NCBI RefSeq assembly: GCF_006874625.1
Contig: NZ_CP030034.1
Span: 1,054,001-1,118,000 of the forward strand
Reading direction: 5' to 3'
Length of the DNA: 64,000 nucleotides
Origin: Bdellovibrio sp. NC01
GTDB taxonomy: Bacteria; Bdellovibrionota; Bdellovibrionia; Bdellovibrionales; Bdellovibrionaceae
Shown here: positions 34,788-51,571 of the stretch, piece by piece
Numbering within the stretch: the first letter of the stretch is position 1
Layout of the letters: every line of letters starts with the position of its first letter
The notes under the pieces: generated by a model
What the model was told of the DNA's origin: nothing
What the model saw: the letters and a program-made list of their open reading frames with translations, nothing else
The model's database searches: none
Program-made: the position numbers and the translations under genes

Positions 34788-34872
34788 CCTTTGGCAACTG
34801 GCTGGCAACCTTGCGGTAAGCCCCTCTAGTTTTGCGCCCCACGATTTCCCGTGGTTTGCCTTGAGGCAAAGG
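34788..34872 (-). promoter_or_regulatory. c-di-GMP-I riboswitch aptamer
   Basis: Reading the minus strand: P1 CCTTTG pairs with CAAAGG at the far end. GGCAAACC leads into P2 CCACG-GGAAAT-CGTGG, where a GAAA tetraloop is closed by a G-T pair. This is followed by GGCGCAAAACT (consensus GGGACGCAAAGCC), and then P3 with GGCTTACC-GCAA-GGTTGCCAGCC. These are the conserved elements of the GEMM-I fold in the right order. Confidence 0.85.
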
Positions 34873-45133: not shown

Positions 45134-45162
45134 TTCGTCAGTTAAAGATTAAAAAAACGAAG

Positions 45163-45195
45163 AAGGCTCTGTGATGAACAGGGCCTTTTTTATTT
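45163..45195. terminator. terminator between glyS and the fibre gene
   Basis: AAGGCTCTGT and ACAGGGCCTT form a stem with one mismatch, followed by TTTTTTATTTT; it lies between convergent genes. Confidence 0.8.
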
Positions 45196-45200
45196 TAGAC

Positions 45201-48200
45201 TTAATCCAGCGGTAAAGAGACATTGTCGAACGAGATCCACGCATTGCTGGACATACTTTCAACAAAAACTAAGCCGGTGTTTGTCACAATGACGTTTGCA
45301 ACACCCGGCGAAGAACCATTGCCAGCTCCAATAGTGAACTCTTGAGAATAAAGAGGTCTATAAGCAGCGGGGAGTGTAACAATCGCATTAGCAGAGCCAA
45401 CGCCTCCGTTTTTAATTAATCCACGCATACGTAAATTTCCCATGCTGTCGATGCGATAACCGAAGTTGCCATAATTGGAATTGCCATAGTTGATCCATCC
45501 TCCACCTAACGAAGATGGATAGTTCCAAGGCTCTTGCTCTAGTTTCGTAGTACCACCGACCACTTGTAGTTTCGCTGTGGGAGCATTTGTACCGATGCCG
45601 ACGTTTCCTGCGTTGTAATATGCCTTAGTGCCTGACTGCAGCCACTGAGCGGCCGGCCCTTTCGCAAAATTAAAGGCGTGGCCTGCCGCAATGACGTTGC
45701 TAATCGACGTTGCACAACCATAAGATCCGGATGACACGGCCATGTTGCTCGCCGCCGCATAGTAAGTGCCGTTTGAGGCATATTGGATATAGTAGTTAAC
45801 CCCGTCTATGGAATAAGCATAGGTCTGAACTCCGGTACTACCTGAAGCGGATTGCGAATGGTACATCATAAGATGATCATTCGGGGAACTTGCGCCATTC
45901 CAAGTGCACAGAATCGCATCCGGCCATCCATTGACCATTGAATTATTAAGACCTGTAGATGTCGCCGCTGAAGTTTGCACGGTGCCGTCTGGAAATTTAA
46001 TACCACCAGATGTCGACTCGATAATTCCACCGATTGAAATCGAAGCTGGTAGGCGAGCATTTGCGATTGTTCCCGAAGTGATTTTCGTAGCATCAAGATT
46101 GCCGATATCAGCACATGTCCAAGCTGCACTTGGTGAAGAGAAACTGAGTGTCTGGTTAACAGCGCAGGTTACAGGCATCATCGAAGCATCCAACTTATTT
46201 CCTAATTGAGTGGAAAGATTCGTCACTGCTGAAATCGGAAGTGCAATAGTTGTTGAAGCCGCTGCGGTGATACGACCTTGGGCATCTACAGTGATCGTTG
46301 GTACTGTCGTAGCCGATCCATAAGAACCGGCTGTTACTCCTGTGTTCGTTAAGTTCAATGAACCGCTGTTTGTGATAATGCCACCTGAAGAAGTTGCACC
46401 TGCGGTTGTGTTTAAGCCAGTCCCTGCAGAAATTTGTGTCACCGTTCCGCTACCGCCGCCACCGCCAGTTACAGCGGCTGTTGAAGTTATAGGTATGAAG
46501 CAACGATATGCAATGGAGGCGGAAGGGTTCGAGCTGTCAGCAGCACCACTTGTTGTTAAGGTACTCGCGCCGGGAGAAGAGCTTCCCCACCAGTCAGATG
46601 ATGCAGTCCACTCGGTTGTTGCGTATTTATTGCTAATGGAAAGATTATCTAAGCTCAGTTTCAATTCGCTCAACTGTGGTAAACGTCCTCCATAATTCGC
46701 GAAGCAGTTTTGATTGGCAGCAAGATGAGCGGCCGCCGCGTTCGTTGTGTTTTGAATACAACCCATAGTATTGCCATTGCTTGCGAGAGCCGTAAATCCT
46801 GAAGGACATGCGACTCCAGAAGCCGTTGCGGTCGTCATCTTCGTTCCGTCAGGGAAGATCAATCCGTTTCCTGTTCCGCTAATTTTAATATTGCCCGCAA
46901 CTTCTAATTTTTCTACCGGAGAGTTCGTACCAATTCCGACTTTACCACCAGAGGCAACCATCAAACCATTTGAGCTGCCATCGTTTGATAGATAGAAAGA
47001 TCCTAAATTAATATTTTGTGTCGCCGTATGATTACCTAAGTTATCAGCACCACCGCCGCCAGAAGCGGGACCTGACGGAACTAACTCTGTGACGATGAGA
47101 TGAGTGTTGTAGGCATTGGAAATCATACCAGTACCAATATGGTCATCCCAAATTTTTACAGAGATGACTTCATCAACAGTCGGTTTGTAAATTTCTAAAA
47201 TGGAGGCCTTCAATCCATAGCCGTTGGTTTGACCTGAATCGGTGTACGCCGTTTGACCAATGTTCGACGTACCATTGTTCAGAATATACCCTATATATTT
47301 ATAATCGTTTGTTCCGATGGTGTTTATTGAAGATTCAATTCTATAAGTGACGCCTGCTTTCAGTGCAACACCGTTACCACTTTTTGTAAGTCCGCTTGAT
47401 GCAGAGACGGTGTCAAACGCAACTGTCGAACCATTATCAACAGTCTGATAACCACTCATCGTCAATTTAATATATTTCGGAGAACCGTTAAGTGATAACC
47501 ACGCACTTCCAGCATAGTAATCGACAGTGCCATCATCGGTATTGAATATCATCATACCCGACGCCGGAGAAGGAATTGCATTTCGTTGCGCGCGAGTCAT
47601 TCGCGGTGGCAAAAATGCTTTCGAAGTCGAAGATAAATCTAACAACGCATTCGCATTCGGAGTGGTTCCAATGCCGACGTTGCCATTCAAAATTGTAGAG
47701 CCCGTACCACTCGGAGTCAGAGTGATATTTTGATTCGTTCCACCAGCAGCAAACGTCAACGCACTTGTTCCAGTGATCGAACCGTTCGCAGTGCCAGTTC
47801 CACCATTTGCAACCGGCACAATACCAGTTAACTTTGTCGAAGCATCAATACTTGGTAAATCAGCCGCATTAAAAGATATTTGTGAAGAAGTAATGGCAAT
47901 ATTTGTACACGACAAATTATCTGAAGCTGCAGTCCAAGTCAGAGTTTGCCCTGCGGTACAACCAACGCCACCAAAGGCTTGTGTGCCCGTGATGCCCGAA
48001 CGCAAATCAAACATCGAAATGAAATTTGGCATCCAACCGGTTGTCGTGTTGTAACGTAATACTTGTCCATTCGTAGTTGGCGAAGTTGAAGAAACCGCAA
48101 TGCCTTGAAGTTTTGCAACTGTTGGGTTTGGATAAGTTCCTGAAAGATCTCCACCGGCAGCGCCCGACGGAGCACTGCTGGTTGTTGCAACGGTGATCGT

Positions 48201-49850
48201 ACCCGCACCATTTGTGATTGTGATCCCTGATCCGGCTGTTAATGTCGCAGCTGTGGGTGCAGCCCCAGTTGAGCCAACTAATATTTGTCCATTCGTTAAA
48301 GCGGGAGCTTCAACGATGGCCCCTGCATTAGAAACCATGATGCGATTATTGTTCAGTGCCGTCGCGCTATTTGTACCACCATTCGCAACGGGTAAAACAC
48401 CCATCAGTGAAGTGGCACTGGTGACAGGAGTGACCCATGATAAATTTCCCGACGTATCTGACGATAAAACTTGTCCCGCTGAAGCAGCGACAGAATCGGG
48501 GAGTTTCAAAGAATAATTCGCTGTCACGGTTGCCGGAGCTGTGATCGTGACAGTTTTAGAACCAGAGTCTGTTAGCACCACGCCTTTGCCGGAAGCGAAA
48601 CTCAAATCTCCCGACATGGTGTCGCCAGTTTTTAAAACATTCAGTGCCGCTGAGCCAGAAATGTTGCCGCTGATTTTTGTGCCTGAAATCGTGCCAGAAA
48701 TATTCGTTTCCGAAATTGAAATATTAGAACAAGTCCATGAACCCGTCGGTGAAGAGAAGATCAACGTCTGACCCGCAGAACAGTTCGCAGGCATTTGACT
48801 TGCTTTGATGAGCGAACTGGCATCACTTAAATCGGCCGACGACAAAGAAGCATTCACCCATGTACCTGTGTATTTTAAAAACTGACCTGAGGTTAACGAT
48901 GAAAATGCAACACTGGCGCCCGCGATTTTTGAAACAGAAGGATTCGGATAATTGCCGGTCAAATCTCCACCGGCGCTACCGCCTGGAGTGACGCCTGTGA
49001 TTGTGACATTCGCTGCAGCAGTGAGGCGACCTTGTGCATCGACTGTGAATGTTGGAACTTGCGTCGCGGAACCATAAGAATTCGCAGACACAGTTGTATT
49101 ACTTAAACTGATTGTGCCAGTTCCCGTGATCGGTCCGCCAGTAAGACCAGTACCAGTTGCGATGTTGGTTACTGTACCGCCGATTGCGCCAGAAACACCC
49201 GAGCAACCAAAAGTTTGTGTCGAAGCATTCCACGTTAGGAAATTGCCGCTATCACAATTTGTGCTGACGCCAGCAATTTTGTTCACGTCGTTTTTCAAAA
49301 CAAAATCACTCGCGGAATTTGTTCCAAGCTTTAATGCAGACTGCGCCGCCATGGAATAAGCAGCGTAAGGCACCGAGCGAATTGAAGAGTCGGGTGAAAT
49401 CAAATTCCAACCATGACCATCATAAAAAGAAATTCTTAATTTGCGGGATTGACCGCTGGATGCGGCGTAAGTTCCTGAAGCAGCACTGCAAGAATAAGTG
49501 TTGCCTGAAGAAGAACACGTTCCACAGCTGAATGTCGAAGAGTTGTTGAAAATATCTAAAACGCTTGTGCCCGGAGACGTGGGAAATTGAATCGAACCGC
49601 TACCGATCGGAACGTCGAACACGCCTTTAGAATTGGCCATGTTCACGCCCGTCACTTGCTCTTGATAAATCAAACACAAACCAGCAGGATCGAGAATTTG
49701 AAAAAGAAATGAGACGTTTGCATACTCAAGGGGAGTGCCGTCATTTTTTATGATGCGACCTTGATACGTCAAAGCACTTGGCGATGCGTGCGCAGCCAAC
49801 GTCCCAAATAGAATCAACAGAACTAGAAAGTGCCGAACAGGATGATTCAT
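45201..49850 (-). CDS. giant secreted tail-fibre-like adhesin (MAT-like chimeric fibre)
   Basis: 1549 residues from the ATG at 49850; a GTG at 49868 adds six. After a signal peptide (cleavage near AHA-SP) comes a ~170-residue beta head with LTYQGRIIKNDGTPLEYANV. The shaft has repeated phage-fibre-type units: GGDLTGNYPNPSVSKIAG and GGDLSGTYPNPTVAKLQG, and VPTFTVDAQGRLTAAA and VPTITVDAQGRITAAA. VGIGT motifs recur (GNVGIGT, KVGIGTNS). Inside are a C1q/TNF-like domain (about 47050-47470), a Cys-containing DUF1566-like domain with EWTASSDWWGSSSPG, and a C-terminal ~110-residue beta domain. Trimeric fibres built this way are reported as prey-contact proteins in B. bacteriovorus. Base composition is Gly/Ser/Thr-codon rich. 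Confidence 0.88.
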   Translation of the reverse strand: MNHPVRHFLVLLILFGTLAAHASPSALTYQGRIIKNDGTPLEYANVSFLFQILDPAGLCLIYQEQVTGVNMANSKGVFDVPIGSGSIQFPTSPGTSVLDIFNNSSTFSCGTCSSSGNTYSCSAASGTYAASSGQSRKLRISFYDGHGWNLISPDSSIRSVPYAAYSMAAQSALKLGTNSASDFVLKNDVNKIAGVSTNCDSGNFLTWNASTQTFGCSGVSGAIGGTVTNIATGTGLTGGPITGTGTISLSNTTVSANSYGSATQVPTFTVDAQGRLTAAANVTITGVTPGGSAGGDLTGNYPNPSVSKIAGASVAFSSLTSGQFLKYTGTWVNASLSSADLSDASSLIKASQMPANCSAGQTLIFSSPTGSWTCSNISISETNISGTISGTKISGNISGSAALNVLKTGDTMSGDLSFASGKGVVLTDSGSKTVTITAPATVTANYSLKLPDSVAASAGQVLSSDTSGNLSWVTPVTSATSLMGVLPVANGGTNSATALNNNRIMVSNAGAIVEAPALTNGQILVGSTGAAPTAATLTAGSGITITNGAGTITVATTSSAPSGAAGGDLSGTYPNPTVAKLQGIAVSSTSPTTNGQVLRYNTTTGWMPNFISMFDLRSGITGTQAFGGVGCTAGQTLTWTAASDNLSCTNIAITSSQISFNAADLPSIDASTKLTGIVPVANGGTGTANGSITGTSALTFAAGGTNQNITLTPSGTGSTILNGNVGIGTTPNANALLDLSSTSKAFLPPRMTRAQRNAIPSPASGMMIFNTDDGTVDYYAGSAWLSLNGSPKYIKLTMSGYQTVDNGSTVAFDTVSASSGLTKSGNGVALKAGVTYRIESSINTIGTNDYKYIGYILNNGTSNIGQTAYTDSGQTNGYGLKASILEIYKPTVDEVISVKIWDDHIGTGMISNAYNTHLIVTELVPSGPASGGGGADNLGNHTATQNINLGSFYLSNDGSSNGLMVASGGKVGIGTNSPVEKLEVAGNIKISGTGNGLIFPDGTKMTTATASGVACPSGFTALASNGNTMGCIQNTTNAAAAHLAANQNCFANYGGRLPQLSELKLSLDNLSISNKYATTEWTASSDWWGSSSPGASTLTTSGAADSSNPSASIAYRCFIPITSTAAVTGGGGGSGTVTQISAGTGLNTTAGATSSGGIITNSGSLNLTNTGVTAGSYGSATTVPTITVDAQGRITAAASTTIALPISAVTNLSTQLGNKLDASMMPVTCAVNQTLSFSSPSAAWTCADIGNLDATKITSGTIANARLPASISIGGIIESTSGGIKFPDGTVQTSAATSTGLNNSMVNGWPDAILCTWNGASSPNDHLMMYHSQSASGSTGVQTYAYSIDGVNYYIQYASNGTYYAAASNMAVSSGSYGCATSISNVIAAGHAFNFAKGPAAQWLQSGTKAYYNAGNVGIGTNAPTAKLQVVGGTTKLEQEPWNYPSSLGGGWINYGNSNYGNFGYRIDSMGNLRMRGLIKNGGVGSANAIVTLPAAYRPLYSQEFTIGAGNGSSPGVANVIVTNTGLVFVESMSSNAWISFDNVSLPLD

Positions 49851-49984
49851 ATTTATTAGTTCGGACACTTTTTAGGTGCACTAAAATTAAGAATCTCCAT
49901 TTTCTGTTTTAAGTGAGCGCAAATTTTACGCCTATGAATATAGGACCTTTTGGGCGGCTCAATGCAGGATTTACTAACAATTGT

Positions 49985-51571
49985 TTACGCAGATTTTCGT
50001 GTCGAAATCTCCACGAAATATTGGCTCCTTTTCAATGGCGTTGATTTTGCTCCATGAATCACAGTGGTTAAATCTGTGACAGCGTCTTTCATTACGACGG
50101 CTTCTTGCTGTAATACATCTGCAGCAGCCGATGACTGTTCTGCTTGTGCGGCATTGCTTTGGGTGACCTGATCAATTTCACAAATCGCTTTGGAAATCTG
50201 CTCAACACCTTCAGCTTGTTCTTCACTGGCGACTGCGATTTCTTTATTCAGCACCACGACTTTTTCTACCGACTTTACGATTTTTTCTAAAACAATGCCG
50301 CTTTCATCGGCCAAGCGTTTGCCACTTTCAATTTTCTCGACACTATCGCCAATCAAATCAGAAATTTCGCGCGCTGAAGAAGCACTTCTTTGTGCGAGTC
50401 CGCGAACGGCTTCGGCGACGACGGCAAAGCCTTTTCCTTGTTCACCGGCGCGAGCCGCTTCGACGGCGGCGTTTAAGGCTAATAAATTGGTTTGAAAAGC
50501 AATGTCGTCAATGACCGTGATGATCTCTTCAATTTTTTTTGAACCGCGAGAAATCTCGTCGATCGCATTTAAGAGGTGACTCATTTGTTGTTGTCCGTCG
50601 CGCGCTTGATTGCAGGCAATCTCTGTCAACTTATTCGCACTTTTTGCGTTTTCTAAATTGCGATGAACGATCGAAGAAATCTCCGTGGTGACGGCGCTGG
50701 TTTCTTCTAGGGCCGAGGCGGCTTGCGTAACGGAATCTTGCAGTTCGCGACTTAATGTGGCGATCGTTGAACTTGAACCTTCAACAGCTTCACCCGAAGA
50801 TTTCAGTTGCTGGCCAATGTTGTTCAATTTTGCAAGCGGCGAGCGGACCATCCACCAAGAAAACACAAACGCGAAAATCGAAATGCCGACCGACCAAATC
50901 ATCACTTCGATAATCGCGTCTGTGGTTGCTTGTTTTACGGAGGCTAAATTCAAATCGGAAATAACTGCGAAGGCGCCATGCAATTGACCGTCTTGCCAGT
51001 TTTCCATTTGAAAACCAAGAATGTCTTTGCCATTTTTAAACGGACTTGTGGCGGGATCTCCATGGCAAGTCAGGCAACCTTGTTTTTGACTTAGGCGAAC
51101 GGGTTGATAAACGATGACGTGTTCGGAATTCTCTACCGTCAGTTCAGATAATGACGGGTCGAGTTCAAACTTCTTTAAAATCTCGGACTCCTCAACCGTA
51201 GGAGTATGATCTTTGTTGCGTGGATTTTCTGAAAAGATGCGGAAACGATAGTTTTCTTTGGCGGCATTTTCGGAGCCGACTTTCATAGCGGCAAAAATCG
51301 GAACTTGTTTTAAAACCTCCAGACGTTCTGCTTCAGGTAATTTGCCATCGGGATGTTTTTCGATGGCTCGTTCGATAGAGCCTTTTAGGCCGCCTTGATC
51401 AGCAATGAATGAACGGACGGAAGAAAGCCTGGATAACACCGCACGCGATTTTGCTTCAAGAGCAAGCACGCGTTCTTTTTTTACTTGGCGCACGGAAATG
51501 AAAGTTGTGGCAGCGGTGGAAGCTAAGCACAGAATGCCAATCATCCAGAGAATGCGAGAGTGAAAGTTCAT
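49985..51571 (-). CDS. chemoreceptor with Tll0287-like c-type haem sensor
   Basis: 528 residues. N-terminal membrane segment (~8-25), then a periplasmic domain (~30-215) with [15 protein letters not shown], a CxxCH haem c motif, in the DUF3365/Tll0287-like setting ([18 protein letters not shown] pattern at the start and [16 protein letters not shown] at the end). The second membrane segment (~222-240) leads to a standard signalling domain with [20 protein letters not shown]. It likely senses redox state or a gas through a covalently bound haem. A dyad lies upstream. Confidence 0.93.

Follow-up and report, generated by a model that had tools for sequence, protein, structure and literature searches.

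Twenty-one mosaic adhesive trimer (MAT) proteins have been published for Bdellovibrio bacteriovorus HD100, in which a head sits directly behind the signal peptide (PMC10769870). Of the six MAT tips that have been solved, two are TNF-like domains and one is a C-type lectin; the other three are a beta-helix of the S74 type and a pair of beta-sandwiches not characterised before (PMC10769870). A second reference is provided by siphophage receptor-binding proteins (RBPs). Their solved heads are trimers, carried on the baseplates of phages whose binding targets are saccharides of the cell wall (PMC7291167). Here we compare with both systems a fibre gene from Bdellovibrio sp. NC01, located in a 64,000-nucleotide stretch (the window) of a genome of 3,975,853 bases.

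The open reading frame of the fibre gene occupies positions 45201..49868 of the window on the minus strand, where all the parts of the protein described below are also encoded. The frame has 1555 codons from a GTG and 1549 from the ATG at 49850, from which translation most likely starts, in agreement with the 1549 residues claimed by the sequence-only reading. A classical signal peptide was recognised by eye after this ATG, MNHPVRHFLVLLILFGTLAAHA/S (49785..49850, residues 7-28 of the 1555-codon frame). That reading had also described repeated phage-tail-fibre motifs, and each of them was indeed found twice, GGDLxGxYPNP at residues 300 and 572 and VDAQGRxTAA at residues 276 and 1194, and neither of them turned up when the protein was shuffled 2000 times. 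At 0.469, versus 0.452 for the window, the gene has an ordinary GC content that does not point to recent transfer.

Right behind the signal peptide lies the conserved beta-rich head of around 130 residues that marks the MAT superfamily, presumed to be the anchor on the predator surface (residues 29-175, 49344..49784). The NCBIfam model NF053851 (Bdello_MAT_N) matched residues 17-193 with an E value of 1.8e-63 and 213 bits (cut-off 60), and 33 of the 34 other MATs match this head. The shaft is kin to the solved MAT beta-helix units, in such a way that residues 959-1051 matched the crystallised MAT Bd2133 (PDB 8ond) with an E value of 9e-7, and shaft matches were found in up to 34 MATs. Members of the superfamily end in S74 or in a swapped adhesive tip; a search for the S74 domain (PF13884) in the fibre protein gave no match, and its C-terminus is instead a tip of a predicted RBP-head class. 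Because of the curated head model, the 33 other MATs with the same head and the match to a solved MAT shaft, the protein is, by homology, a non-S74 member of the MAT family. With NF053851, 30 MAT heads were detected in its own genome, the highest number among 24 Bdellovibrio genomes, the others being 3-29 in 22 genomes and 21, equal to the published number for HD100, in a genus-mate genome that we take to be B. bacteriovorus HD100, whose GlyS protein is 86% identical to that of the genome studied here. S74 is carried by 23 of these 30 own-genome MATs, the fibre gene being among the seven without it; judging from their positions, the S74 domains of the genome, 23 in number, all fall in frames with a MAT head.

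The comparison with known MAT proteins, proposed earlier as a check, thus found similarity in both head and shaft, and the mosaic plan claimed together with the MAT identity is supported as well, by nearest relatives that are specific to each segment. The head is closest to the MAT L150 (76%). Shaft A, with VDAQGR and GGDLxGxYPNP units (residues 176-420, 48609..49343), is closest to L159 (68% over residues 228-386), and shaft B, with the second GGDLxGxYPNP (421-680, 47829..48608), to L154 (66% over 430-666). An AFLPPRMT module that leads into the first inserted domain, or bead (681-795, 47484..47828), has 52-67% identity to L179 and L180, the MATs of genomes G003 and G006; for bead and stalk, the nearest relatives are the 1069-residue MATs of these same genomes (51-68%). 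The ADNLGNH stalk with its GKVGIGTNSP beta-helix (936-1017, 46818..47063) has matches in 23 other MATs, besides that in the solved Bd2133. Shaft C, delimited by segment comparison with other MATs, contains the second VDAQGR unit, the GIKFPDGT motif and a beta-helix (1131-1300, 45969..46478), and a GNVGIGTNAP beta-helix or linker (1413-1441, 45546..45632) with matches in 19 other MATs leads to the tip. Since the nearest relative changes from segment to segment, the fibre protein is a mosaic as judged by this comparison. The DNA identity of the gene to other MAT genes is mostly 63-83%, so that very recent exchange is not visible. Among the MATs of its own genome, the fibre protein is the one with the most sequence lacking a paralogous counterpart, in three stretches, versus two at most in any other.

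Between head and tip, three domains interrupt the shaft and, at the level of sequence, are real departures from it. The sequence-only reading had noticed two of them, and both are present, although neither of the names that it gave them found support in sequence profiles. The bead (residues 796-935, 47064..47483), described as C1q-like, had sequence relatives only in L179 and L180 (51%); it showed no Pfam match to PF00386, a genus-wide family search was negative, and hhalign gave a probability of 0.1% against one C1q-matching MAT tip. The four-Cys domain (1018-1130, 46479..46817), described as DUF1566-like, gave similarly negative results with Lcl_C, as there was no match to PF07603, the genus-wide family search was negative, and the hhalign probability was 2% over 16 columns around GG..LP..EL; no relatives of this domain were found at an E value of 1e-3 in MATs or in the collections searched. 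The third, domain X (1301-1412, 45633..45968), was absent from the earlier list of domains; it has a WPD motif and one Cys pair (C1321/C1385), and its nearest relatives, at 35%, are in the MATs of genomes G005 and G018. No match was obtained by tblastn of bead and four-Cys domain against GenBank phages, nor in viral scans with bead, four-Cys domain and X. An AlphaFold2 model of residues 720-1130 from single-sequence input reached a pLDDT of 34, and domain X had low confidence in the run made for the tip. As other MATs have different domains just before the ADNLGNH stalk, this position looks like a site of exchange.

Genuine C1q and fibrinogen-like domains are present in other MATs of the genus. 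One MAT of the same genome (L155, 1310600-1315400) has a tip matching C1q (PF00386, E 6e-9), and one MAT each of G018 and G017 (L125 and L126) has a fibrinogen C-terminal-like end, with an E value of 2e-9 to PF00147 for L126. The multi-domain MAT of G005 (L183) contains a bead, an X-like domain, an internal RBP-head-like domain and then a terminal tip, which by eye resembles that of Bd2133. In contig 2 of G023, two open frames, 3689 and 3367 residues long (L135, L144), contain MAT-stalk-like sequence.

A distinct C-terminal tip had been proposed, and it is present at residues 1442-1555 (45204..45545). Its nearest relative is the internal domain of the G005 MAT (36%), the terminal tips of the G003 and G006 MATs being at 21-23%. 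The tip matched a PHROG family of minor tail proteins with an E value of 5e-9, one of its relatives giving a stronger PHROG match, and a profile of four tip sequences recovered 150 related viral stretches from IMG/VR. The best 80 of these 150 were kept for further work, and in many of them the domain ends a few residues from the stop codon. These relatives place the last ~115 residues of the fibre protein in a family that is common in phage tail proteins. None of 31 members of the family is covered by Pfam, and tblastn of the tip against GenBank phages gave no match. Matches of the tip profile to PDB sequences were 28-residue hits to designed "Pizza" repeat proteins, which were judged spurious. 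In 66 Bdellovibrionaceae genomes the profile detected four copies, in four genomes, each in a MAT frame, and did not detect the class in the genome assigned to HD100. A tree of the tips did not distinguish between a single capture by MATs and several (AU p 0.37).

To model the tip, AlphaFold2 was run with 55 relatives, leaving out of the input the loci fetched from genome searches, and the model obtained had block-mean pLDDT values of 89-98. In structure comparisons, it superimposed on gp15 of Listeria phage PSA with a Z of 13.4 (2.1 Å over 103 residues), on the Pa223 tail needle with a Z of 13.5 and on the RBP heads of lactococcal phages TP901-1, p2 and bIL170 with a Z of about 9, with lower values (4.4-6.7) for the fibre heads of adenovirus and reovirus. 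A Foldseek search of the predicted viral proteins in BFVD recovered minor tail, baseplate and BppU proteins. The predicted model thus has the siphophage RBP head fold, which strengthens the earlier suggestion that the tip probably sets specificity. The MAT family is already known, and on the basis of this model the RBP-head class of tip is outside the six solved MAT tips, the comparison being with solved tips only.

From these likenesses we infer that the fibre protein is a trimer displayed on the cell surface, that it binds glycans and has a role in predation, and, by analogy, that it makes contact with the prey. The simplest reading would put the head on the predator, the shaft as a spacer and the phage-type head outward. 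The protein would be secreted and its conserved head would anchor the fibre on the predator surface; the long shaft of phage-fibre-type units would join three chains and bear the three inserted domains, and the trimeric head of siphophage-RBP type at the outer end would bind a prey surface glycan during contact. We consider it probable that the protein is such a secreted, non-S74, trimeric prey-contact MAT fibre with a phage-type saccharide-binding head. A more ambitious version, in which it is a multivalent "beaded" trimeric adhesin where up to four binding domains follow one another along the fibre (the bead, the four-Cys domain, domain X and a phage-RBP-derived head), is put forward only tentatively; if true, a single fibre could bind successively to different layers of the prey surface or to different kinds of prey. 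When MATs of HD100 were deleted singly, the phenotype was weak or absent, so the fibre protein may also be redundant.

The timing and the target of binding admit other readings. Some HD100 MATs localise to the invasion vesicle, or are seen in the bdelloplast only at a late stage (PMC10769870), as could be expected of a MAT fibre that acts after entry by holding the deposited vesicle or by resealing the prey envelope; nevertheless, all the C-terminally mCherry-tagged HD100 MATs tested are displayed on the attack-phase surface (PMC10769870) and phages are known to use a head of this type for first contact, which makes such a role rather unlikely here. With respect to the target, the computed evidence links the tip no more to prey than to other surfaces, and it could bind the predator's own, a sibling or an abiotic surface in a protein serving biofilm or defence. 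This we regard as improbable in view of the family precedent of MAT Bd2439, which binds prey LPS glycans (PMC10769870).

In its genomic setting, the gene has glyS on one side and housekeeping genes (of the pyruvate phosphate dikinase type and SMC) on the other, and a scan of the neighbours showed none that code for phage structural proteins. This, together with the presence of a signal peptide and of the curated MAT head, makes it highly improbable that the phage-like shaft motifs and tip belong to a prophage or tailocin tail fibre and not to a cellular adhesin. The gene for this putative adhesin converges with glyS on a hairpin (45159..45191) that folds on both strands (z of -6.0 and -3.7) and is likely their shared terminator, although it is missing from the output of a simple scan for terminators. 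On its other side is a chemoreceptor gene (49985-51571, minus strand) for a methyl-accepting chemotaxis protein with a Tll0287-like sensor. Eight related genomes have both glyS and the gene of pyruvate phosphate dikinase type on the fetched stretch, and in all eight the interval between these two contains neither the fibre gene nor the chemoreceptor gene. In G023, glyS is less than 100 bases from the homologue of a 109-residue gene, and a similar hairpin stands behind glyS, where the fibre gene is missing. From this site comparison and the hairpin counterpart in G023, the fibre and chemoreceptor genes are most likely an addition at the glyS site in the own lineage. Elsewhere in the window, a c-di-GMP-I riboswitch aptamer was detected at 34790-34870 on the minus strand (60.7 bits versus a gathering score of 35).

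A predator fibre with a siphophage-type host-recognition head would be a direct case of parts common to phages and predators, and the tip, as a small (about 115 residues) and confidently modelled domain, leaves its glycan specificity open to direct testing. Among the systems compared, L179 and L180 share with the fibre protein the head, shaft, bead (51%), ADNLGNH stalk and a related tip; whereas they pass from the stalk straight into the tip, the fibre protein has ~430 extra residues between both, corresponding to the four-Cys domain, shaft C and domain X. With the HD100 non-S74 MATs (Bd2133, Bd1334, Bd2439, Bd2734 and Bd2740; PMC10769870) it has in common the signal peptide, the conserved beta-rich head, a fibre shaft with beta-helix units and a swapped non-S74 tip, and it differs from them in having three additional domains, foreign to the shaft, inserted on the way from the head to the tip. 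Finally, the predicted fold of its C-terminal head is that of the siphophage RBPs PSA gp15, TP901-1, p2 and bIL170, and the domain is C-terminal as in many of its phage tail relatives; however, the identity of the tip to the solved RBP heads is only 8-21%, and it is borne by a bacterial secreted fibre instead of a phage baseplate.
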